DNA of 64,000 bases from Paramacrobiotus metropolitanus (taxonomy: Eukaryota > Tardigrada > Eutardigrada > Parachela > Macrobiotidae). A program made the position numbers and the translations under genes. Under the pieces are notes generated by a model. The model was not told the DNA's origin and did not search any database. It was given only the letters and a program-made list of their open reading frames with translations. The stretch lies in contig NW_026570222.1 in assembly GCF_019649055.1 (NCBI RefSeq), forward strand, positions 3,100,001-3,164,000. The letters run 5' to 3'. Below are positions 1,283 to 35,609 of this stretch, piece by piece (the first letter of the stretch is position 1; every line of letters begins with the position of its first letter).

Positions 1283-2959
1283 TTAGAATTTAACCATTTT
1301 CTTGATCGTTTCAACACACCGCCACTTGTCAGGAATGTAATACGGTTCCAGTGTATGCGGGAACGGAGTATCCCAACCACAAACCCGCTCAATGGGTGCT
1401 TCCAAATTAAGAAAGCACTCTTTCTGCACATAGGAAGCAATTTCCGAAGCGAACCCGTTCGTGACCGGTGCTTCATGAGATATCAACAATCGACCAGTTT
1501 TCGCCACTGACTGGCAGACAGTTTCAGCATCCCACGGCAGAATTGTTCTCCTAAAAAGAATACGTACACAATCAGACATGACACAAGCATAACATAACCA
1601 TTGAACAGCTGACTACGCGTCGGGGACGAAATTTCAAGGTTGTTGAGCGTAACTGCCGGTACACTTACAGATCGATAACTTCACAGCTGACTCCCAAAGT
1701 GTCTTTGGCGATAGCCGCCACCTCTTTGAGCACATGGATCTGCGTACCGTATCCCACCAACGTAACATCGTTACCTCCTTCCAATATTTCGGCCTTCCCC
1801 AAGGGGATCGTATAATCACCGGTTGGAACATTTTCTACCGCTGACCTGCAAAACAAGAAAAATAATTCAATGCCGCCGGAACTGCAACTCTGCACAGAAA
1901 CACAGATTCGAGCAGACGTAGCAATTCACTTTGATCTAAATACTTAATACGTCGTTTAAACCTGTAGAATCTCGAAAGGCAAGAAACATCTTGCTATTAA
2001 AATAAAATTCCGTAAAACGAGAAGGGAAATGAGGAAAGTAAAACAGAGAAGTAAAGCCTTTATTTTACCCAAATTCCTATCTGCCTGCTCAATGCTCTCT
2101 CTCACAACTGTGAAACGATGTCAAAAACCTACAGAAACTGCCGTAACAATGCATACGACACATGCCAGATGTTACAAAGATCTCCGATAATGCTTTCAAG
2201 GAAAAATTAACAAGTGATAGAGTTAAAGTTCGTTATTCACCTACGATGTTGCTTACAATTGTTTTTAGCCTCAGCGTAGCGCGTCAAACCGTACCTGTAC
2301 ATAATTTTCGGCTCAAAGAAAACACACGGATTATCATCACGAATGCAGGATAAGAGCAATCCCTTGGCCTGAATAGGACCACGAGGGATAACCACTTTCA
2401 GACCAGGAGTGTGGGCAAAATACGCTTCAGGACTTTGTGAATGGTACAGTGCGCCGTGTCCGACGGCGCCGTATGGAGCACGCACCGTCAGCTTCCCACA
2501 GTTGAACTGGTTCCCCGAGCGATAACGGAATTTTGCGGCTTCGTTGACCAGCTGATCAAAGGCCGGAAAGATATAGTCAGCGAACTGCACCTCGGCGATG
2601 GAAGTGGCTCCTGCCACGGCCACACCGATACCAAAACCCACGATACCCTGTTCGCACAGCGGAGTGTTGAAAACACGGTCTTTGCCGTGGCGTTCCTGCA
2701 AGTTAATGGTAGCTCGAAATACTCCGCCAAATGCCACATCTTCTCCAAATATCACGGCAGTCTTATCTGTGGCGAGGGCGACATCCATAGCGCTGTTAAT
2801 AGACTGGAAGAGGTTGAGTTTGGTTGTTTCTCCATATTCGGGATTGGCAACTTCTGGTGCATACGTGAAACGCGCAGACACGTTGCGTGTTGGAGCGGCA
2901 CAGAGGACAGCGCGATGACGGAGCAAGGAAAAGGACGAAGAGAATAATCTGAGACTCAT
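1283..2959 (-). CDS. BCKDHB: Branched-chain 2-oxo acid dehydrogenase E1 beta subunit, mitochondrial
   Basis: Beta subunit of the thiamine-diphosphate-dependent E1 of the BCKDH complex, which decarboxylates the 2-oxo acids of Leu, Ile and Val in the mitochondrial matrix. Three exons in transcript order: 2959-2295, 1845-1669 and 1550-1283, joining in frame to 369 residues (about 392 in vertebrates). The N-terminus [10 protein letters not shown]... is Arg/Ser-rich, as expected of a transit peptide. The E1-beta core is unmistakable: [12 protein letters not shown], the [20 protein letters not shown] block, [22 protein letters not shown], then [17 protein letters not shown] and the C-terminal [15 protein letters not shown]. 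The frame is also open to an upstream ATG at 3133, but the Met at 2959 gives the better presequence. No damage is seen. Confidence 0.96.
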
Positions 2960-3133
2960 TTCACACACAGAAAATGGCAGACAATTAGAGAACAACAAGA
3001 GAAGAAACCGCAAAGCACTCAGTTCTGCGTACAAATTTGGATTTGCGTACGAGCTGAAGTTATTACAGTACAGATTTCGATGCGGGATGCAATCAGCTGT
3101 TCGATGGCGAATCATAGATGTACTGTACCGCAC

Positions 3134-5306
3134 TTTACGTCTTACGACACAGCATTAGTGGATCGATGCTATGGCACTATGCTGTACTTAACACATTATT
3201 TTTTGGTAAGTGATAATTTATTAGTTAAATGAAAATGTATATATACTACAGCAGGCGTTCTGACATGAGACATAAATATTAAAGAAACAAGCCCAGCACG
3301 GATGAATATTGGCCGATGACTATTAAAAACACTAAAGTGACATTTCCTACGGAAATAGCTCCGTCAGGCCTGGATGGGAAAGGGAAATAATCGGGATAAA
3401 CGGGAACTGGATACAAACCACATGGAATACTTCTATAATTATTAGGCTATTAGCCCAACCACATTCTAGCGACAGCTATGCTGACTATGCAGTATGCCCG
3501 TATTAACTGGCATACCGTAAACCACACCCCTAACTTGTGCCAATCACAGGGGTGTAACATTTTGGTTACAGATTTCCCCATAGACCGTGCAAGAAACAAG
3601 CCGTATACACTCTTATACAGAAAGTCTCACTTTCTGTTTTTATTATAGTGTATAGGTCCTGCAACAGTGTGCAGGCCTGACGGAAAAATAAGTAATTCTA
3701 AGGATGTGTTGCTTTGCGGTCGCTTACAGACTGTCATAATATTAATGAACCCGTACGTATGTTTAGTAATATAAACGTACGTATGTACGTATGTCGTACG
3801 TATGTACGTATGTACGTATGTACGTATGTACGTATGTATGTACGTATGTATGTACGTACGTATGTACGTATGTATGTACGTATGTACGTATGTATGTACG
3901 TATGTCTATATTATGATACACTTTACATAAGTTAATCGAAACACGGACTGCCTTCTTGTACATACAGTACATAACTTCCAATGATGACTAACGCAATGAT
4001 GACTGACGTGTTAAGTTACTTACATAAATTTTTTACTTTGTATTGTACTCGTACTTATTGTTAAGTAGCAGCTCAGATATTGCTACTGTTCTGGGTCAAG
4101 TTGTGTTAGAACAGTGTGCATTTCTTATCGCGTCCATGGTAACAAGCTTATGATTGACCACTGGACCTAGACAAATGATTTGGGCAAAACGTCAACAATC
4201 TTGGATCCACCGCTACACCTAGAGAATTTTGATGTACTTTAAAGCAACAAAATTGGTGAAGTAGAAGCCGAGATCCTTTGCCTCAAAGGACAGGGCCGAA
4301 GTCCTGGCACAGGTAATCAGTATTCATATAACGAAAATCAAAAACAATCAGCAATGTTACTATATTAGGTAACAATTTACAGAATTTAGATAATGTTTAA
4401 GCAAAAAATTATAATTATATACGCGCACTGTCTATGTATGTGATCAGAAGAGGCGGAAAATAACGGTGCCGCTCAGCGTACGGTTTTGAACTATTCGTAA
4501 GTACTGTACTCCTTATGTACAATAATTATTGTTGTAGTAATAACTGCGTACAACTCCTTTTATTGTAGTTGGACTTCAATTGGAAAGCGTACGAGCTCTC
4601 AGAGCTGGAAGATGTGTTGCAGTTCTATCGCAGAATATATTGTTCTGGTGCCTTAGATATGAATAAAGGAGACTTAATAAATTATTACGTCGTTAACATT
4701 TTCCAGTTTTCTTTTTTGTTTATTCTGGCAAAATTACCGTACTTACTGTTCTGTAAGAATAACCAGATTATATAATTTTTGATAGTTTTACTTCATCGGA
4801 TGCTGGTACGAGTTGTACTCCATAAACTTTAATATCTTCAATATCTAATACACATATATTGTACAGCCAATAGTTTATATAGTAATTATAAGCTTCAACA
4901 TTGCTTTCGTTTACAAGTTACAATCAAGAAAGAGCCATAAATTAATAATGTGAACGTCCACGAACAATACATTGTACACGTGTCTATTCAACGAACAATA
5001 GCGTGCAACAATAGCGAACATCTAGTGGTATGCATGACAACACAAGCATAACGATTAGATAGTTCACTTGTGATTTATGTGTGCTATGATCTTCCTCAGC
5101 TGCGCGCATAACGCGCTGTACGGTATCGCGGTAATATTATGCCGGATGCGCTTCAGCTGTAATCATTCGCCACCGTTGAAACCTTGTTTCACATTGATTT
5201 CCTTCGGCAGAAGTTGAAGATGTCATCAGTGCATGAAATTAGCACCTTGACAATAGCTCACACGAAATCCACCTCTTCATTTCCTGCCTACAATTTACCG
5301 CTTCGA
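3134..5306. other. Gene-poor stretch between two minus-strand genes
   Basis: This stretch lies between the BCKDHB 5' end and the 3' end of the SAM-domain gene. It holds the microsatellite at 3775-3905, a short inverted repeat (CCGTCAGGCCTG at about 3361 and its complement at about 3672), and AT-rich sequence. The only coding-like signal is on the + strand. An exon-like block at 4265-4312 reads KPRSFASKDRAEVLAQ, with AG before it and GTAATC after it. A second block from 4569 reads LDFNWKAYELSELEDVLQFY, preceded by TTGTAG. They join in phase, but I recognise no family and find no start or stop. It may be a relic or part of an unfound gene. Confidence 0.4.
3775..3905. repeat. ACGT/ATGT microsatellite
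   Basis: About 130 bases of alternating ACGT and ATGT tetramers (unit mostly ACGTATGT), interrupted by single-unit phase slips. It is strictly alternating purine-pyrimidine and largely self-complementary, so it could form cruciform or Z-like DNA. Open frames on both strands here (Tyr-Val/Val-Cys/Arg-Thr repeats) are only translations of the repeat. Confidence 0.97.
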
Positions 5307-8300
5307 TTACACGAAGCCGGTATGTGGATTGCGCTCCGATTTCATAATCAACTGGGCCTCATGGAGAATGCGTGTACGCGGTCCCATGGGAACTCCCAGG
5401 CGTCGTAGTTTGTCTTCAGTCATGTAAGGCAATTCATTCAGACCGATTCTCTCAATTTCAAAGAGGCGGGCGTATTTCTATAAAAAAAATTTATTGTCGG
5501 ACCTATGTTCAATCCTGAATTAGGTAGGATAAAAACATGTGACCCGATATCCCTACCTCATAGCCCAGCTTTTTCAGGAATATACGCACCAACGGCGGTT
5601 CAGAGCCAAAAAACCTAAATAAACATTTTTCTGTTAGCAGTCAACAATTATTAAAGTACCGTTTTCATTCCTCTCACGATAGCTGATTACATTAGGGTGC
5701 TACGGTACAATACGTGCATTTACAACCAACGTTTACTGAAATTCTGTTCATCCGTTTGCGGTTCGAAGCCTTTGAGGTTCCAAGTTTGGTTACATCGATA
5801 TATCGACTTTCAGTGTACGAGTATCTGATTAACGAAATAAAAATAACTAATGGTAAGTTACATCGAATCACCGACTTACAGGTACAGTAGTAATAAACAG
5901 TAAACTCGAAAACAAAATAATTCAGTGATGCATTAATGATTAAAGCAATGCGCCAGGAAACGTTTAGCAATAAGTCAATAACCGGGCTGCATGTCAGTCT
6001 ATACTAGCAGGATTTCGGGTACACTTTACTGAAGCCGTTTATTAAAAAATAAAAGTAAGGAAATAGATCCTACTGCAAGGATAGCAATAACAGTAAGGAT
6101 AATTCGCAAAATGTTCTCTTCCGACATCACTGTAAACACTGTACTGTATTACCATACTGTTTTAACAGGGAAAATATGAAATATATAAGAAGCGGTTACG
6201 TTATGTTCCCAGATTTCTTGGAATAGATATTATTCATAATTTCCTGAACAGTCTCTTGTGGTAAGCACTAAGATCTTTCTCACTGATTTGGTAGTTGACC
6301 GGGCCTACTTTATCATTACGAACGAAAGAATTCTCTTAAATAGTCCAGATGCGAGTAGGTAACTAGTTTGTATTCAAGTGAAAAAAGTTCTTGGATTAAT
6401 AAGTGCAGATTTCCGGCCTGGTTAGTTCCATAATCCCATTCTATTTTGGTTTGCTGCGAACATTTCTTGGCTAAATAACATTACAACACAGTGCGCTTAC
6501 TTTGTTAATTTATTAACTCGTTCAGGATTGGATAGCATGTGTGTATTATCAGATGCGCCCTTGGATTGTGGAACGGTGATAACCGCACCAATGTTTGCTG
6601 GCCGGGATGACAATGCAACAGGTGTGGGCAGTGAATCCGAATTTCCGTTCTGGCTGAGATCCGTAGTTGACCTGTACACAACCGGCAACGGCTGTACGCT
6701 TGGCTGCAGGGAATGAGTCGGCGGCTTTTCATCGGCGAATCGCACTCTTGGCCGTTGGTTAAGCTCCAGATGGCGAAGAGATGCCTGTTGCGCTTCTATT
6801 TCGTTTGTTAGATATTCGATGTTTTGTGTCAGTTTACTAATATGTCCTTCCAGCATTTCACAACGTCGTTGCATGTCCACGTCATGAGGGCTACATTTTA
6901 CAAAGAGACGCAATGTACAGATGGTATACGAGTACATAACTATCTGTGTACTAGCGAGACGACTACAGTAAGCATGACAGCACCTCTGTCACGCATGCTC
7001 TGACTCTACTACTACTATTACATTATTTACATACTACCAGGACCTGATACTCGGTATAATAAAAATTGATAATTATATTGTTTTGGATGGCAACTTTTAA
7101 ATTACATTAATTTGACTAGACCATCCGCAATGCCGTAGTGAATTTAATAGTACAATTTAATACCTTTCGTTTCTTGATCGAGCAACAGCCTCCAGTGATG
7201 TTTGGGCTTGTGTATGCACATGAGCATGCTGTGGTGAAATTGCAATATTCTCTGTCGAGGGTGATGAGCGTATAAGAGGAGTCGGCTTATGGGAACTCAT
7301 GGCTTGTAACAATTTCATCTGCATATCGCATAATGCGAGAACTTGCTTTTTGGCAAGATATTCGTAAAGATTTGCGTCATCTTCTTGCAGATTCCCAGAA
7401 AATCCTTCATCGGAAGACGCCCTGTGATCACCGCCGGTAGAATCCAGATCACCGTCGGTACTGTTGCTGCCGGCATAATCATTATGGCTAGAATGCTTCT
7501 CATGGCTTGATAATGCCGGCTGATCCCAGAAACCGGCTTCATCAGCCGGAGAATGTGATTCACTAGGGCAGTTCACAGGGGAAAAGGGTGTAGAGGGAGG
7601 TGTCGATGATGGCACCGTAGGTTTACGGCTTCCGGCAAAATTCCTAAAGATACCCATGCAGCTTTGTAAATTGTATGTGTATAGATAAAGGTATCGCACA
7701 GAGGACTATTCACGATCAGTAACATACAGAGTAGTCAGCATGTAACAATAAACTACTTCTAGTACTTTATATGCATAGATTAAATAAACAAGGTTCTGAC
7801 AAATCAATTATTCATAAAGGTCTTCAGTTAATATGCACAATGCTATAATACCAATTATGCTTTTCGGCGACTTGATCAAATGGTCATGGATAAACAATGT
7901 CATCGCTAACATTCCAGAGTACGTGCAAAAACCACAACGCGTTTCTTACTACGTAATCACACCGCGTTATAACAAATTTGTTTATCGTATAATTAATTTG
8001 AACCTAAAAACCTAAACAAGCATGTTTCTAACATTATTTCGTGACTAACACTTTTTTGTGACTCTCAGGCTCTTTAATTTACGTACGCAAACATGGTCTA
8101 TCAAAAGATTTACCGGTGAACTTCACTTTGTTTGCTTTCTTTGGACATTGGCGCTCTGCTAGAGTTGTCAAAGGTCTCCCTAAACTCGACGTCGGTCAGT
8201 ATTCTTCTGTTATGTCCACTACGGGTGGGCACCGCTGGAGATGTTTTCAGATCGTAAAACTGACATTTGTTACGGTTAGGACTCCTCAACCGTAGAGGTG

Positions 8301-27226: not shown

Positions 27227-29258
27227 CTAGGTGTATCTGCTCCCTGGCGCGACAGTCGGATTATAGACCTCATCAATTTTGGCTTTTTTATGATCCGGAT
27301 TCGGATACTCAGCCGGTGGTTTTTCATCCCAGTTTCCTTTCCACTCTTCTTCGTGTGAATCGTATGGTTTGCCACGGTTGTGGTGCTTCTCCCAGAATTT
27401 AATAAATTCATCTTTGCTCTGCTCGCGGCGTTTGAAGTAGTGCGGAAATTGCGCTTTCTCCATCGGATGCCACATATCAATCAACTACAATAGAAAAACC
27501 ACTGTACTTGGTACCAAAAATGAAAATTATGAATTACTTACTGACGTCTATATTAAAAATTTCATTTAAGAGCTTATCGCATTAAAAATTCAGTTACAAG
27601 CTTTATTACAACGTAGGTATTGTGTTATAACTAGGCCTATTTATGACAGCAGCGATTCTGGTTTAATGAATTGTCCACACTACAAATAAAAAAACATTAA
27701 GACATGGTCACATGGACATGTTTCAGATAAAAGATTCTAAACCGGTTTAGGTCAAAAATCGATCATACTATTTGAAACTTCGTAGACTCAGTGATGTCCC
27801 GTTTTTTTCACGGGCCTGGTAATCACGGAATTTCGCATCCCGCACCCGCTTTGCTCGGAAATGCGGAGGCTGCTCGGATCGCGGTCAATATAGCCTGATT
27901 ATACGCCCGCCCGCTACTCGGGAAAACACGGATTTCTTTGAATTAAAAAATTTTTATAGAATTTCTAGCAATTTTCGCAGCCAAAGTGTGTCAGCTTGTG
28001 CTTCGCGCGAAAGTTGGTGTCTAGGGTGGGTCTCTGATTCAAAGCGAACCAGTTGCGATACAGCGATTTGATAAGCGGCATAGTCTGCCCTGTGACGCAA
28101 ACGTCGGTTTCGAAAGAAAATATATTTACGGCAATTGTATAAGTTATAATTACGGACAAGTTCAGTTTTTGAAAAGTAAAAGTAAGATTTATCATGCAGG
28201 TCTAGTCTTCTAGAAAATGCGTATCCATTAAACTTTTCGACGAAACTTTGTCACAAAAATTTTGTAATAGATTTGTAACAATTATTAAAATTATTGATTC
28301 ATTGAAAATCGGGAATCGGAGCGGGTTGCGGGACGGTCCGAGCGCTCGGGTGCGGGAGCGGGTGCGGGAAAGTTTTTGATCGTGAAAGTGCGGTCGGGAC
28401 ATGAAAAACTGCAAACGGGACATCACTGCAAGTTCGTACTCTACAGTTAAGTTAATAACAACAGTACGTAAAATACGTAGTAATGTACTGGCAGTACTGA
28501 GTAGGTAATTAATGACTTACACTGTCCATTTTCGGGCTGTACCGTTGGTATGCATTACCTCCTGGAGAATATTGAACTGCAAAAACCAATCATTTGAAAA
28601 TTTCAGAGATCTCTCTCAATATCGATATGATCACGCACACTGAAACGGTATCGGATGCTGGTTACGGAACAGCTCTTCTTCTCCGTCTTCGACCCATTTC
28701 TGCGCTTTCCTCATGTCTTTTTCATCTTTTCTTTGATCAAATCGCTGTCGCAGCAGAACTGCTCGGTATCTATATCCAGTCCTTAAAAGCAAAGCGATAT
28801 TAACTGTCACGACAAAAGGAAATTCCTACAAATTGTCATTTATTATGAATTATCGTCTAGGGTCTACCAATTACCATTACTGTAACGATTTAAAATTAAC
28901 CTATTCACAATATACTATTCTTCATTTGAATACTATATAATTGTTGAGCGAAGCTCGCTTTGTGCATATTGAAAATAAATTGCATATACTATATCGTATA
29001 GTAAGAGCTTACTTATAAACATAAACTAGAACATCAGCTTTCCCCATTCCCCATTAAATGCGCAATTGTACATGCTAATTTATTATTGAACAAGAATCGA
29101 TAAATTATGGCAGACGATGGACAAACGCCTTTACTGCAGTACTCGTACCTCTCGACAATGAAACTTTCAATGGTGCGAAGAGCCTTTTTGTAAAGCGAGC
29201 AGACTCTCTCGCGATGAGAAACTGCACGTGTGGTTAAATAAGTGTATCTGTTTGCCAT
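27227..29258 (-). CDS. NDUFB9: NADH dehydrogenase 1 beta subcomplex subunit 9 (LYR protein B22)
   Basis: Accessory LYR-family subunit of respiratory complex I. Four exons: 29258-29149, 28769-28639, 28576-28521 and 27484-27227, giving 184 residues (human 179). The LYR motif sits in the first exon as SLYKKALRTIESF, then RYRAVLLRQRFDQRKDEKDM aligns with the vertebrate [20 protein letters not shown] region. SPGGNAYQRY and MWHPMEKAQFPHYFKRREQ are diagnostic. The donor of exon 2 (CAGT|GTGCGT) was chosen because only it restores the PIPFQFQYSPGG alignment. Intron 3 carries a 640-bp transposon-like insertion. The gene is head to head with the snoRNA host gene. Confidence 0.95.
27789..28428. mobile_element. 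640-bp hAT-like non-autonomous insertion
   Basis: 16-bp terminal inverted repeats, CAGTGATGTCCCGTTT at 27789-27804 and its complement at 28413-28428. Subterminal GC-rich motifs of the CCCGCACCCGCT type occur near both ends. A CAGTG start resembles hAT termini, but no clean 8-bp target duplication is visible, so the superfamily is tentative. It has no transposase frame and lies in intron 3 of NDUFB9. Confidence 0.75.
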
Positions 29259-29757
29259 TATCAGAATTAAATCAATGCCAAAATAAAACACCAATGGAAG
29301 GTTCAACAGAATCTCGACTGCATTTAGATTGTAAAGCTTCGAGTTGACTTGTGAGCTGCAGAAAACTGAAAATAATCATTTAATGTTTTTGTTTTTGGAG
29401 TTTTGCTACCTTTGCAGGCCTTCATATGGGATGTGCTGCACTGCTGCTTTCCACCTAAATTCCCACTTCCCGAGCGTTAGTAGTAAGTACGGTACTAGTG
29501 CCACACCCCTAACAAATGTTGCGGTTTTTAACACAAGTATGGGCATCCCTAACGGGCGGTGTTTGGCTGATGAAAGCGCTACGGTAGCGCTTACGGATGA
29601 AAGCGCTAGCAGGGTACTGAGCGTAGCAGCCGCAGCTATCGCCTACCCGTCGCTAGTGCAACCTACCTGGTGCCGTCGCCAGCTAGTGAAGACGCGCCCA
29701 ACCCTTGGCTACTTCCAGGTAGCTTGAGATAGTCGTTGACTCGTTATTGCTTTCAGG
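29259..29757. other. Divergent upstream region between NDUFB9 and the snoRNA host gene
   Basis: This stretch contains a locally GC-rich block with a near-palindrome AGCGCTACGGTAGCGCT around 29577 and two copies of GATGAAAGCGCT. No gene is seen. It probably holds both promoters. Confidence 0.6.
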
Positions 29758-29765
29758 TATAAAAG
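29758..29765 (+). promoter_or_regulatory. TATA box of the snoRNA host gene
   Basis: A canonical TATAAAAG. About 25-30 bases downstream the sequence is pyrimidine-rich (TTTTATCCTCC), compatible with a TOP-like initiation site as used by many snoRNA host genes. No other gene starts here. Confidence 0.7.
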
Positions 29766-30230
29766 AGCGAAATTTTACGATTTTATCCTCCGAAATCAGA
29801 AGGCATAGCTACTGGTTGCTGTTGGCGGAGTGGTTGCTGTACTTTTTAGTTTTGTTCACAAGCCAGATGTGTTATTTTTTATTAGCTAATGTCCAGATCA
29901 GATGCCATTGAAGACGAAGCATTGCGAGAACTTGATTGCGTGAGTATTAATGGTTTATGCTGGAAGACAGCATGAAACTGGCAAGCGAACTTCGCGGCGT
30001 TTTAGGTTCGCGATTGTTCGTCTTATTAGCCGAAAAGTCTTCGTGTCTGCTTTACGGTAATCCTGACGTACCTGATGTAACAAGAGTATTTATTTGTTGT
30101 TTCAGGAGAAACATTCCAATGAATCTCCAGGAAGTAGTTTTGGCTCTTAGTAATTTGGAAAAAGTAAGAACCGTACCGGTTACTCACCAGTTTGAAGGTT
30201 CCCGGCTGTACGTACCGCACCGCATTGCGC

Positions 30231-30290
30231 AACATTGATGAATATTGTCTCGTTCGTCTGAGTGTTTGATGATTCTTTATGTCTGAAAAA
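30231..30290 (+). ncRNA. Box C/D snoRNA, 18S guide
   Basis: C box UUGAUGA 30235-30241, D' CUGA 30258-30261, C' UGAUGA 30267-30272, D CUGA 30283-30286. The D' guide GTCTCGTTCGT is complementary over 11 bases to the conserved 18S segment ACGAACGAGAC. By the D+5 rule it would methylate the A of that ACG. Terminal stem is weak. Confidence 0.75.
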
Positions 30291-30523
30291 TCAGAGATTC
30301 GTGCAACGTCTTCATGCAGACAAATTAATTTCGCCGCAGTACGGACACCATTATATAACCGCGTAGTTTTGTAGGAAGCACACCTGGGAAAAATGTTCGG
30401 CAATCAGGCTGTCGTAGAAACCGCAGACCGGTATGGAATATCGAAATCCGGCGACCTGCCACCGGATTTTGCCGGGTAAGCTAAGCTTGTAAGGTTTTTG
30501 CGATGCTACTAATTCAACAAGTA

Positions 30524-30590
30524 CTTCATGATGTTAAAAGCTACTAGATGGACTGAATACTATTGATGTCACTCCACCAACGCTGATTTT
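30524..30590 (+). ncRNA. Box C/D snoRNA, 18S guide
   Basis: C box AUGAUGU 30528-30534, D' CUGA 30553-30556, C' UGAUGU 30564-30569, D CUGA 30583-30586. The D guide TCACTCCACCAA is complementary over 12 bases to the conserved 18S segment TTGGTGGAGTGA. Confidence 0.78.
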
Positions 30591-30746
30591 TATTTTTGAA
30601 AACAGCCGGAAGCTCTAATGCTAATAGGATTCGTTTTTACATTTGTTTAATTGTGTAGATTCTCAGTGGATTGCTCGTCGAGAACCCGATAATGTAAGTG
30701 AGATATGAACGAGAAGTAGCCGCCAATGCCCGGTATAACATCCTTA

Positions 30747-30820
30747 GCATGTGATGATAAAGAATGTCCCCATCTGATATTTTGTGCTGTGTCAAACATT
30801 CTGTTCCAACTACTGAAGCT
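30747..30820 (+). ncRNA. Box C/D snoRNA, target not recognised
   Basis: C box GUGAUGA 30751-30757, D' CUGA 30774-30777, D CUGA 30813-30816, with a short AGC/GCT terminal pairing. Guides AATGTCCCCAT and CTGTTCCAACTA do not match rRNA that I can recall. Confidence 0.6.
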
Positions 30821-31234
30821 TTGCACGTACTAAAAATTATATAAATACTTATTTTAATAGTTTTTGGGTCAGAATATCCACATTTTGTGTATCCATAGTG
30901 GCACGGAATCAACACACAACGATGATTGCCGCAGCGCAGGAAAAGCACTTGATCTAGAACGCGGTAAGCGAAATAACGTTGCGTTTTGTATTGAATATTG
31001 CAACCTGAGAACGGAGGATGATTCAGTAGGGTAAAGTGCTTTTCAAGCGGAAGCATCGTGACGACTGGCTTAATCTGATAGTTTTGCTTATTTCTGCAGG
31101 CCCATTTATTCAGACGTTACGGGTAGAAATTCAAACGGTTTTTTTTTTGTTTTAGGGCTTACGCTAGATGAAAACCTGCAGTCAGGTATGTGAAGTTCCT
31201 AAGGAAATCTTACTCAAATCGTTTCTGTTGCCTT

Positions 31235-31304
31235 TTTCATGATGAACGTACATTTCTCTGAATTGGGTGTGTCGATTTGTCACTTGGTTCGTGTTTCTGA
31301 CTGT
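31235..31304 (+). ncRNA. Box C/D snoRNA, 28S guide
   Basis: C box AUGAUGA 31239-31245, D' CUGA 31258-31261, D CUGA 31297-31300. The D guide CTTGGTTCGTGTTT pairs with the conserved 28S segment AAACACGGACCAAG over 14 positions with one G-U pair. Confidence 0.75.
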
Positions 31305-31483
31305 TAAATTCAGTTACATTATGGCTAATGTTCTTGTTGATCAGAAGCAGCAACGAGCAAATAATAATTATAGTTTTTTTGTAGATTTCATGCTGTAACC
31401 AAGAAGTCATTCGTCCTGCCCCATGTTACTCGATTTAACCATTTTAATAGTAAGCTTGATCGGCTTTAATAGACTTTTTGCAC

Positions 31484-31559
31484 CATTCAGTGATGATAAA
31501 AAAACGACGGGCGGTCTGACCATACTGATGTTTGTCGTTTTTTAGCTGATTTTTGAATG
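31484..31559 (+). ncRNA. SNORD43: Box C/D snoRNA, U43-like (18S 3' end)
   Basis: C box GUGAUGA 31490-31496, D' CUGA 31516-31519, C' UGAUGU about 31526-31531, D CUGA 31546-31549, with a 5-bp terminal stem CATTC/GAATG. The D' guide CGACGGGCGGT is an exact 11-base complement of ACCGCCCGTCG near the 3' end of 18S. The D+5 position is the C methylated by U43/snR70, hence the name. Confidence 0.85.
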
Positions 31560-31717
31560 TGTTTCGGTTACACAGTACGAACTGATTTGCAGTTTGCACT
31601 ATAGGGTTGATGCATTTGAACGTTTTACAGATATACAACTTTCTTTTATGGAGGTGAATAATTTCTACGGGACCTCAGTGGTGAGTTTTAACTTTTAGTA
31701 AAGACTTTGTAGCCCGT

Positions 31718-31793
31718 TTAAATGATGACAGAACGTTCCGCCCCAGTCTGATTGTTGTGAGGATAGAAGAACTCTACGAAAATGTCTGATTCT
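31718..31793 (+). ncRNA. Box C/D snoRNA, probable 28S guide
   Basis: C box AUGAUGA 31722-31728, D' CUGA 31748-31751, C'-like GUGAGGA, D CUGA 31786-31789. The D' guide CCGCCCCAGT complements ACTGGGGCGG, a conserved 28S core segment. Confidence 0.7.
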
Positions 31794-32112
31794 GTTGTAC
31801 TTGAACAGCCGCTTGTTGGCAATCGACTTGTTTTGTTAAAACTTACATATCCATCTTTTCACAGAAACCTTCCTTTTTAGGTCTTTCGGTTTTGGAGTAA
31901 GGCCTCGTCCCGAATTCAAAGCGAATCTCGTTGCGATACAGCAACTCCACCTCGCAAGGTGGCTTCGCGTACCGTATCTTAGCGTCTTCAGCCGTGGTTG
32001 TACTTAGCGGATTCTTCGAATGACAAGGCCTAACAAAAGCATCAGGTAGGCTTGCATGTTAAGTTTTCTCCTGATACGGCGATACCCCCACGCACGTAGC
32101 TGATCTGTTAGC

Positions 32113-32212
32113 GTAAACTGATGATAAAAATGCCTAAACTTCGCGGTTTCGTACAGAAGGAGCTAGCGAATTCTAATGATGGTGGCAGATCTTCCTTGGA
32201 TGTCTGAAACTT
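32113..32212 (+). ncRNA. SNORD14: U14 snoRNA, copy 1
   Basis: C box CUGAUGA 32118-32124 and D box CUGA 32204-32207. The two U14 18S-pairing domains are both present. AACTTCGCGGTTTC (32137-32150) complements the 5' 18S segment GAAACCGCGAA. CTTCCTTGGATGT (32191-32203), directly before D, complements ACATCCAAGGAAG. U14 is needed for pre-rRNA cleavage and 18S 2'-O-methylation. The first base of the C box is C rather than a purine. Confidence 0.92.
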
Positions 32213-32618
32213 GAATCGCTTATATTCTAAATAACCTGGTTATCAAAATATACTTGTATTTCATCGTACTACATTACATATTACAATGTTGCAGATTCGT
32301 AAACGAGGAGATACTTAAGGTGTTACCGCGTTGGAACTTGGCATAAGAACGAAAAAGTGAGTTTTCCGTTGACTGCTTTTTTGTTACATATTAAAGGAGG
32401 GTCGTCGAGAGAAGTAGAGCGAAGTAGATCTGACTGAACGGGTGAGGTGGCTTGCATGAAACGTGCGGTAATACCTCAATCCAGTTTGATACATACTTGA
32501 TTGTTTGCAGACCTTTTCCATTCGGTGCCGGCCTTAATTTTGCAAGCTACCCGATTCCGGTCCGATGAGACGCCGACACTGGAGGTACAGTATGCGTTAT
32601 CAATAATGCTTTCCAAAC

Positions 32619-32683
32619 ACAAATGATGATTGAAACTTCTCTGAATAAATGAAGAAGTTCTGTTTCGCTCTCTCGCTGATTCC
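32619..32683 (+). ncRNA. Box C/D snoRNA, target not recognised
   Basis: C box AUGAUGA 32623-32629, D' CUGA 32641-32644, C' AUGAAGA 32649-32655, D CUGA 32676-32679. Guides TGAAACTTCT and TTCGCTCTCTCG are unassigned. Confidence 0.65.
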
Positions 32684-32863
32684 AGTCGGAAAATTATCTC
32701 TTTATATTTTTTTAATTAATCACTGACGAAGTATTTTGTTTTTAGTAAGACCTGTCTCGTTTTTGGACAAAACAAATAGCTCCTGAATAATTCGCGCCAC
32801 GGCTTTTGACTTCGGTTTGGTGAGTGTTCTGCCCTAAATAGATAGCCTTGCGGATTTTGCTCA

Positions 32864-32930
32864 CCTTATGATGACAATTTAACTCCTACTCGTTATGAGA
32901 TATGTGATTGAGTTCTAAAATTCTGAAGTT
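32864..32930 (+). ncRNA. Box C/D snoRNA candidate, target not recognised
   Basis: C box AUGAUGA 32868-32874 and D box CUGA 32923-32926 in an otherwise unexplained intron, with CTT/AAG flanking pairing. D' is not clear. The guide GAGTTCTAAAATT is unassigned. Confidence 0.55.
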
Positions 32931-33088
32931 TGGTCTTAATAGTATATGTCAGTTTGATATGTTTCCTTATTAAACCATCGGTTGTTTTCTTGTAGTTTTG
33001 ATTCAAGACCACCCATTTCATCATATCAACCAAAAAAACCGGTAAGAATATTAAGCAATACGATTGTGTTAATGAGTGTAAAAACCTA

Positions 33089-33184
33089 TTCTGTGATGAA
33101 AATCTTGCCTGAACTTCGCGGTTTCGTACAGAAGGAGCGTGAATCCTTATGTTGTTGGCAGAACTTCCTTGGATGTCTGATGAG
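33089..33184 (+). ncRNA. SNORD14: U14 snoRNA, copy 2
   Basis: C box GUGAUGA 33093-33099 and D box CUGA 33177-33180. It carries the same two 18S-pairing domains as copy 1 (AACTTCGCGGTTTC and CTTCCTTGGATGT), and the segment from the first domain through CAGAAGGAG is identical between copies. The spacer and flanks are diverged, so this is a real paralogous copy in a different intron. Confidence 0.93.
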
Positions 33185-33335
33185 CATTAGTTTGCATAGA
33201 TGACAAACCGGAAATGTTTCCCGTTTTAGCGTTATCGTTTTTGTTTCAGAAAGACTACATAATTGCACTTCCCTGTTGGATTCATATTGGAGGGTGAGTT
33301 TTGGCTTTCTTATTCTTTAGAGGTTTCGATGTACT

Positions 33336-33405
33336 GTAGATGATGACATATAGCTATCACTTACGCGATGATGCTGAAGAATTTTTCCTTACCTAATCTG
33401 ATAAA
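33336..33405 (+). ncRNA. Box C/D snoRNA, probable 28S guide
   Basis: C box AUGAUGA 33340-33346, internal CUGA 33374-33377, D CUGA 33398-33401. The guide TTTCCTTACCTA complements the conserved 28S segment TAGGTAAGGGAA with one G-U pair. Confidence 0.68.
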
Positions 33406-33562
33406 ACAAAAATCCGCGAACTTTCTCGTTAATGCCAATTTTTTGAGATCTCTCAATCGAATGATGCGTGTGTAGGTGGTATTGCGATACCGTACTATTC
33501 GGAGCGCCTTCTTTCATGGGGTTAGGTAAGATTTTACAATCAGATATTACCATCTTGGGAAT

Positions 33563-33628
33563 TTAAAGGATGACAATCAGAATCGCTAGCGGAATTATAT
33601 TGACGACTGATAAGTCAGTCTGAATTTT
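33563..33628 (+). ncRNA. Weak box C/D snoRNA candidate
   Basis: C-like AGGATGA 33567-33573, CUGA 33607-33610 and 33620-33623, with TTAAA/TTTAA terminal pairing. The degenerate C box and lack of a recognised target keep this tentative. Confidence 0.4.
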
Positions 33629-33711
33629 AATGGTGTTTAGCATCAGAACTAGTTGTATTGGAGATCGGTGAATTGATGACAGTTTTTTATAGGAATTATT
33701 TTGATCACGTG

Positions 33712-35609
33712 TCAGAGTCGTTGGTTGCGAATTTGTCCACGGTCACGGATCAGCGCGAATTTGGTTTTGCCAGCGTTTGGTTGGGCTTGCGAAATGAAAG
33801 ATGTAATGGAGATTTTATACATATCTTCGGCTACGCATTGGCATTTGGCTCGAAATTTTGGACTGAAGGATTGTTCTGGAATGGCTTCTTTGACGACCAT
33901 TAAACAGGTTGCCGAATCCAGTTGGTCACCGGGAGAGCATCGAAATCGACTGGAAATGAAGGCTGATCGGTCTTTAGTCCACTGACCATCGAAAGGGGAA
34001 TTCACTGCAAAGCTGTCTTTTGAGTTTTATAGTACAAATACTTCTGTATCCCGGAGCGATGTTGCTCCCGTTTTTGGAAACTTGATAAATTATAAAGGCC
34101 AGACTTTTCGAGTCACAAAATGTTTCGCGGGTTGTGTTACATGATACTTCTTGGCATAGGCACAGAATAAGCGTTCGTGCATTTAAGCCATCATTACCGC
34201 AGTCTTCGTAGGTAGGGCAGCAGCTTCCGTTTTCTTTTTTGGAAAAACAACGAAGGCCGTTTGGAGGCGTGGAGCATATTGAGCGGCAGTTAGCATAATG
34301 GAAATCACTTGAGATAAGGTTGAGTGATTTCTGCTCGTTCATACATTGGCATTGCAGAGAACATAAGTCACTGAAGGCCACAAATGATCCGGGATATGTG
34401 CACGATGGTCCATATGGTTCAACACCTTCGAGGATCAGTTTCAATGAAACATTTTACTGTTAGACAAGCTAACCGGTAAGCAGTTAAAACACCGTACTTA
34501 ATATTACTATTATTATCATCGCACTACAGCAGATAAACTCCATTAAGGTATCATACGAGGCTAATGGAAAATTTTCTTTGTTAATTTAGAAAATTTTATA
34601 CTTTTTTTTTGGTTTGATTTTATGAGATGGAAGTCGAACTCTGGACATCCAATGATTACAACTTAAAGCTAGACGACTACCAAAAGTAGACCTATAACTT
34701 TTCTAGCTAGAAGCAGAAACGGAAGGACTTTCATAATTATAACATAATAAGTACTTATATAATAATCAGTATCTGGGATCTAATTTCAAGGGTATATTGT
34801 AACTTATACACTGCACTGCATGAATTTGCATCACAAGTTCACAACTGCTCAAAGTGCGAACTACAGATATAAAGCATTATTTTCTAATGGAAATTTTAAG
34901 TACAGTAGTACCGTGTTTGCCTAATTAATTTGGCTTTTAATAAGTAAGTACGAGTACGTACTACTTCACTCTGTAAAATACTTTGTAAATGCCGGTGAAA
35001 TGCGCAATGTAAAAACTACAGTACGATATTCACCATCAGCCTTTCGAAACAAATTTCAAAACGTTACTTATGCTGTACGAGTATTTTATATGTATCTTTA
35101 CTTATTTTGAACAGCAGGTAGGTATCCACTATCAAGTATTTTAAATAATTAACACAATTGCAGAAGTGTTGCATTCTTTACCAGCTACAGTTTTATGGTT
35201 ACTGCTTGCCGCTATGAGGAGATAATTAATATGTTGCATAGAAAAATAATTAAAAAAGTACTAAAGCTGATTCTTGTTCTTGATTGTGTTACTCACAAAT
35301 CGCCATGTAATTGTCTTTGGTCAAATCCGACGGCATGGAAATCGTATCTTTGACATCAACCGATTGGATGGGAACTTGTGCCCCTTCTTGACCGGAAGGG
35401 CAAACTTTCCAAGGTGGCATTAAAACCGCTGAGTTATCAGCATCCTTGTTTAAAGTCAACTTTCGCAGTGCCAAACGGGAAATAAATTTTGCCGGCTTAA
35501 TTTTTTTCGGAGGTCTGGGAATTTTTTGCGGTTGAGCACCAGGAAGCAATATACAAATTACCACAGCCAGGGAGCAAAGAAAAAGATACATGCAGCCGAA
35601 GGTGATCAT
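33712..35609 (-). CDS. Secreted cysteine-rich protein with VWC-like domains
   Basis: Three exons in phase: 35609-35297, 34425-34198 and 34004-33712, giving 277 residues. A hydrophobic N-terminus (CMYLFLCSLAVVICILLPGA) is a clear signal peptide. A basic linker (PRPPKKIKPAKF) follows. Exon 2 has the spacing of a von Willebrand factor C-type module: CTYPG, CSLQCQC, CRSIC, then ENGSCCPTYEDC. Exon 3 has another short Cys cluster (FRCSPGDQLDSATC ... KCQCV). VWC modules usually bind BMP/TGF-beta ligands or matrix, but I cannot name this protein. The exon 2 acceptor CCTCGAAG was chosen because it is the one that joins in frame. The 3' end approaches the oppositely transcribed snoRNA host gene. Confidence 0.78.

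Follow-up and report, generated by a model that had tools for sequence, protein, structure and literature searches.

A probable box C/D snoRNA host gene in the tardigrade Paramacrobiotus metropolitanus and a second snoRNA array in the same genome

Introduction

Does a closely packed run of box C/D small nucleolar RNA (snoRNA) units in Paramacrobiotus metropolitanus represent a gene dedicated to making those RNAs, or do the units belong to some other kind of locus? The run lies on the plus strand at 29,758-33,692 of a 64-kb stretch of DNA (contig NW_026570222.1, positions 3,100,001 to 3,164,000), which is referred to here as the window, and an earlier note made from the sequence had proposed that it is a host gene of the GAS5/UHG type. 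The vertebrate genes GAS5 and UHG/SNHG1 carry one C/D RNA per intron, have changing exons and short open reading frames (ORFs), and begin with a 5' terminal oligopyrimidine (TOP) start. We find that the intronic C/D RNAs, their guides to ribosomal RNA (rRNA), the splice sites, the spacing, the ORFs, and the comparison with another array in this genome (contig C5) all fit that proposal, and we put the probability that the locus is an RNA polymerase II gene dedicated to box C/D snoRNA production at roughly 0.9.

Results

Ten exact TGATGA...CTGA units occur on the plus strand of the locus. When its sequence was dinucleotide-shuffled 500 times, such units averaged 0.51 and never exceeded 3. Elsewhere on the plus strand of the window there are four more, 14 in all; on the minus strand, one of the window's six exact units falls in the locus. 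In introns 3, 5, and 15, inspection by eye added three units whose C box is imperfect, bringing the total to 13, close to the "about twelve" that had been predicted. The locus divides into 15 GT-AG introns of 154-249 nt, 13 of which contain one box C/D RNA each, and its features are as follows.

29758-29764, plus strand: TATA box (TATAAAA), the sole match in about 29,000-30,200
29787-29939, plus strand: exon 1, with a presumed pyrimidine-rich start (CCTCC at 29,787)
29940-30105, plus strand: intron 1, in which no C/D RNA was found; fold z score -1.0, no Rfam match there
30236-30286, plus strand: U30-like C/D RNA in intron 2 (30164-30374); D' guide of 11 bp to yeast 18S A1326
30529-30586, plus strand: C/D RNA in intron 3 (30476-30658), imperfect C box; similar unit in the C5 array, z 6.0
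30752-30816, plus strand: C/D RNA in intron 4 (30694-30898); Rfam snoR117 below gathering
31017-31078, plus strand: C/D RNA in intron 5 (30964-31155), imperfect C box, degenerate D' box (CGGA); guide to the species' own 28S
31240-31300, plus strand: U18-like C/D RNA in intron 6 (31186-31384); D guide to yeast 25S A649 and own 28S
31491-31549, plus strand: U43-like C/D RNA in intron 7 (31450-31630); D' guide to yeast 18S C1639
31723-31789, plus strand: U31-like C/D RNA in intron 8 (31681-31864); D' guide to yeast 25S G2619
31865-32045, plus strand: exon 9, which includes at 31895-31979 an arm of a dispersed inverted-repeat element resembling a miniature inverted-repeat transposable element (MITE)
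32119-32207, plus strand: U14-like C/D RNA in intron 9 (32046-32294); D guide to yeast 18S C414
32357-32510, plus strand: intron 10, in which no C/D RNA was found; 32360-32500 folds better than shuffles
32624-32679, plus strand: C/D RNA in intron 11 (32585-32745); D guide of 15 Watson-Crick pairs to own 28S
32869-32926, plus strand: C/D RNA in intron 12 (32820-32995), no clear target
33094-33180, plus strand: second U14-like C/D RNA in intron 13 (33042-33249)
33341-33401, plus strand: C/D RNA in intron 14 (33294-33475), no clear target
33568-33624, plus strand: C/D RNA in intron 15 (33526-33692), imperfect C box, degenerate D' box (CGGA); the weakest unit
33693-34200, plus strand: last exon, its end set for the ORF test; ATTAAA at 33,899

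The gene had been placed at 29758-33650 behind a TATA box. The TATA box is confirmed at 29,758; the end is not, as the gene extends beyond it, with its last acceptor at 33,692. The CCTCC pyrimidine stretch lies 29 nt beyond the TATA box and presumably marks the start site. A cysteine-rich open frame of 159 aa on the minus strand (33974-34453) is partly antisense to the presumed last exon and extends behind it; it has no Pfam match.

Below the gathering cut-offs, Rfam matched snoR117 (E = 7.9e-6, intron 4), SNORD14 twice (4.2e-4 and 6.5e-4), snR40 (6.8e-3), and SNORD31 (6.9e-3). Because the two SNORD14 matches score 33.4 and 32.7 bits and do not reach the gathering threshold of 64 bits, the units are named U14-like only. 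A strict C/D search (stem adjoining the boxes, up to one mismatch) returned 20 clusters on the plus strand of the window, 4 of them in the locus. A terminal stem is usual, not universal, in box C/D snoRNAs; by a criterion of at least three pairs within two nt of the boxes, which covers nearer stems only, such a stem adjoins the unit's own D box in introns 4, 5, and 13 (3 of the 13 units), and in intron 7 one is present only with a later CTGA. Introns 1 and 10 were considered as hosts of H/ACA RNAs; no canonical H box was seen in them by eye, and no Rfam H/ACA family matched at E up to 10. Intron 10 forms a strong hairpin (fold z -2.0; 7 of 200 shuffles as good).

Box D lies 66 to 88 nt before the 3' splice site (mean 76.3, sd 7.2), which fits the rule, given in a review (PMC8162545), that intronic C/D RNAs keep a conserved position before the acceptor, with an optimum about 50 nt before the branch point. 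Splice sites were scored with generic weights chosen by us; for each unit the highest-scoring 5' site was sought 30-90 nt upstream of box C, and the highest-scoring 3' site 60-95 nt downstream of box D. The combined scores of the 13 units exceeded those of 3000 random places elsewhere in the window (Mann-Whitney p 1e-9), and the unit median was matched by 0.7% of the random places. When the acceptor was sought anywhere from 20 to 160 nt after box D, the best site lay within 60-95 nt in 7 of 13 window units, 8 of 12 C5 units, and 763 of 3000 random places, and we regard the D-to-acceptor spacing as supported but imperfect. Tandem units at regular spacing could also be read as a polycistronic cluster that is cut by an endonuclease without splicing, as in plants and yeast; this we consider extremely improbable, given that the splice-like sites flanking the units beat random places and that the spacing resembles that described for intronic C/D RNAs (PMC8162545).

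With all exons joined, the longest ORF was 100 aa, a length equalled or exceeded in 49 of 400 shuffles; with exons 1-15 it was 76 aa (86 of 400 shuffles). These lengths are within the shuffle range, so the spliced RNA looks non-coding, as had been proposed from the letters alone. The 76-codon frame sits in exons 1 to 4 and would suit a different gene, namely a protein-coding host with small, fast-evolving exons whose introns carry snoRNAs as passengers, as is frequent in C. elegans. Nevertheless, the frame is no longer than those of shuffles and has no Pfam match, exon 9 includes a piece of a dispersed element, and the C5 array has snoRNAs in common with the locus and none of the 15 tested exons; we therefore hold a protein-coding host to be very unlikely. 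The exon 9 element arm recurs in at least 39 other places in the genome at 96-99% identity, and at least 35 further matches represent its second, inverted arm, about 22 nt away; three copies were aligned, and the right half of the window copy differs.

Targets of the putative guides were assigned by the D+5 rule, mostly on yeast rRNA as a stand-in and otherwise on own-genome 5.8S, internal transcribed spacer 2 (ITS2), and the first kilobase of 28S; a list of yeast 2'-O-methylation sites served as reference. Duplexes scoring at least 9 were found beside 10 of the 35 exact CTGA motifs of the locus, five of them at listed methylation sites (18S 1639, 18S 414 twice, 25S 649, and 25S 2619), and beside 9 of 44 in the C5 array, seven at listed sites, as compared with 26 of 452 on both strands of the rest of the window, none at a listed site. 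The remaining five locus matches are at 18S 1326 (A1326, which we take to be human A1383, the U30 site), 25S 930, 18S 1291, and two at the score limit that are not relied on (18S 47 and 25S 2161). On its own, duplex length discriminates poorly: a score of 9 was reached by 10 of 22 locus guides vs 15 of 150 random CTGA, and a score of 10 by 6 of 22 vs 2 of 150.

A clear rRNA guide is present in 9 of the 13 units (introns 2, 3, 5, 6, 7, 8, 9, 11, and 13), and the guides cover about nine rRNA segments, two being neighbours in the species' own 28S, where at least five conserved segments had been claimed. Judged by these guides, the locus likely encodes U30-, U18-, U43-, and U31-like RNAs and two U14-like copies. 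On the yeast stand-in, both U14-like copies show the domain A and domain B pairing to 18S, with 13 Watson-Crick pairs at the C414 site and 10 Watson-Crick pairs plus one G-U near 18S 84. In intron 3, the D' guide forms 13 bp with yeast 25S (D+5 at 930) and the D guide 13 Watson-Crick pairs plus one G-U with yeast 18S (D+5 at 1291), neither among the listed yeast sites; these positions led us to reject an snR40 identity for this RNA. The Rfam label snR40 was also rejected for the intron 8 RNA, whose guide fits the U31 site G2619 instead.

Introns 5 and 11 carry guides to neighbouring stretches of own 28S (14 Watson-Crick pairs plus one G-U, and 15 Watson-Crick pairs, respectively), each with 0 of 1000 shuffled guides as good, and yeast rRNA fits them worse or not at all. 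The guide of intron 15 is weak, with 11 Watson-Crick pairs and one G-U before CGGA, and points to yeast 25S 868; the listed methylation site nearby is 867. The D guide of intron 4 (30793-30812) has a 14-nt match, including two G-U, to own ITS2 (L006 near 3440-3455), for which 1 of 1000 shuffled guides was as good, this being one of 14 guides tested.

Searching the genome (169.8 Mb, 533 contigs) with one U14-like unit returned two more copies, one in the same locus and one on contig C5, and a search with the locus in two pieces returned, beyond the locus itself, only the C5 U14 copy. The diverged C5 homologues described below were detected solely by local alignment. The second array is located as follows.

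L005 (G000:C5:2898500-2908000), about 7671 down to 3396, minus strand: C5 C/D array, 10 exact units and imperfect ones

The 10 exact units lie within about 4 kb (2097-6106 of the L005 reverse complement), with one extra exact unit 1.5 kb upstream and two imperfect units found by eye. One unit matches snR60 above the Rfam gathering threshold (55.7 vs 41 bits), and the positions predicted for the guides of this unit, 25S 817 and 908, are those of snR60, so that Rfam and guide prediction agree. The array further holds two below-gathering SNORD27 matches and U18- and U14-like units, and other guides point to the U25 and U38 sites. Upstream of the array is a reading frame that matches PTH2 (peptidyl-tRNA hydrolase; E 4.6e-7).

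Six of the 13 window snoRNA regions (introns 3, 5, 6, 8, 9, and 13) match the C5 array at z >5, and five of the six are collinear, the U14-like duplicates of introns 9 and 13 matching one C5 copy. None of the 15 exons tested (all except the last) reaches z 2 against the C5 array, in this comparison within one genome. Shared snoRNAs in order together with dissimilar exons are the mark of a UHG-type gene, in which introns are kept and exons are free to change. The two arrays differ much in content. One might still suppose that the locus arose as a duplicate of the C5 array and has since decayed or fallen silent, and the two introns lacking a C/D RNA and the imperfect C boxes of introns 3, 5, and 15 could be cited in favour; with two own-28S guides intact at 14-15 pairs, five guides at conserved methylation sites, and 7 of 13 units without a C5 match, and hence not a simple copy, this is the least probable of the explanations we considered.

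The intron 3 RNA and its C5 partner (3404-3463 of the L005 reverse complement) are similar (z 6.0) and have different guides, the former pointing to 18S 1291 and 25S 930 and the latter to 25S 2184; a change of target after duplication is possible. In the intron 5 RNA, a 25-nt block (31024-31048) is identical in the C5 array (z 15). It includes the guide to the 5' domain of own 28S and, with no D box adjoining, 12 nt complementary to yeast 25S 2979-2990; this RNA could possibly act as a folding chaperone.

Discussion

If the locus is a dedicated host gene, its primary transcript would start at the short pyrimidine tract behind the TATA box, and splicing would remove 15 introns, 13 of them carrying a C/D RNA 66-88 nt before the 3' splice site, a placement that may let the spliceosome help snoRNP assembly. 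Debranching and trimming, following the known pathway, would then release the snoRNAs, most of which are predicted to direct fibrillarin to 2'-O-methylate 18S and 28S rRNA. The joined exons, with only short ORFs, would probably be removed by nonsense-mediated decay (NMD).

Several observations weigh against such a gene. Its transcription, splicing, and non-coding state are read from sequence, and Rfam gave no match at gathering cut-offs anywhere in the window. Introns 1 and 10 have no C/D RNA, and introns 4, 12, and 14 have no sure rRNA target. Intron borders were placed by eye, and in introns 4 and 5, with two candidate acceptors each, the choice was partly guided by spacing; intron 4 has a higher-scoring acceptor at 30,860, just 44 nt past box D, and in the looser test 6 of the 13 units have their best acceptor outside 60-95 nt. 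Targets were judged mostly on the yeast stand-in, and one of the 150 random control guides scores 13, equal to the best locus guide. In the comparison with C5, 7 of 13 snoRNA regions have no significant match, and the best exon match, that of exon 1, reaches z 1.9 with 5 of 150 shuffles as good.

The earlier note knew of no description of such a locus with this content in a compact invertebrate genome. In so far as this suggests that none is described, it is contradicted by the Drosophila Uhg genes, whose introns, numbering up to 16, each encode a single snoRNA and in which no ORF is recognisable (PMC4430873). Uhg1-5, 7, and 8 resemble our locus, as read here, in being non-coding, in having one snoRNA per intron, and in having two introns without one; they differ in species and snoRNA set. 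GAS5 and UHG/SNHG1 differ from the locus in snoRNA content, and the TOP start and NMD are here presumed. The snoRNA clusters I-V of Neurospora crassa are UHG-like hosts with short ORFs (159-267 bp; PMC2780460), as in our locus, and are fungal with another snoRNA set. For C. elegans, published work describes four NMD-sensitive protein-coding genes called snoRNA hosts (PMC5765348) and short non-coding RNAs either in introns of protein-coding genes or with upstream motifs of their own (PMC2527325); like those of the locus, the intronic ones are small RNAs inside introns. No nematode UHG-type gene came up in the literature covered, which does not include the main nematode snoRNA paper, and absence from print is not established. 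The 22-mer of the spliced leader SL1 had 0 exact matches in the genome, which says little, as variants were not searched.

The gene type is thus known from flies and mammals, and the locus is a good new example, not a new kind of system. What is new is the second C/D array in the same genome, with five common units in order and dissimilar tested exons. We suggest, tentatively and with more doubt than confidence, that the window gene and the C5 array may derive from one ancestral host gene. After its duplication, both copies would have retained the order of the snoRNAs that they share while their exons turned over, the snoRNA set changed by gain, loss, and duplication, and the RNAs of one pair or more (that of intron 3) came to have different rRNA targets; ITS2 might be a partner of the intron 4 RNA, and the intron 5 RNA might connect two distant parts of 28S, in which case some of these RNAs would act in pre-rRNA folding as well as in methylation. 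Two arrays with snoRNAs in a common order and no tested exon in common would show selection on introns within a single genome.

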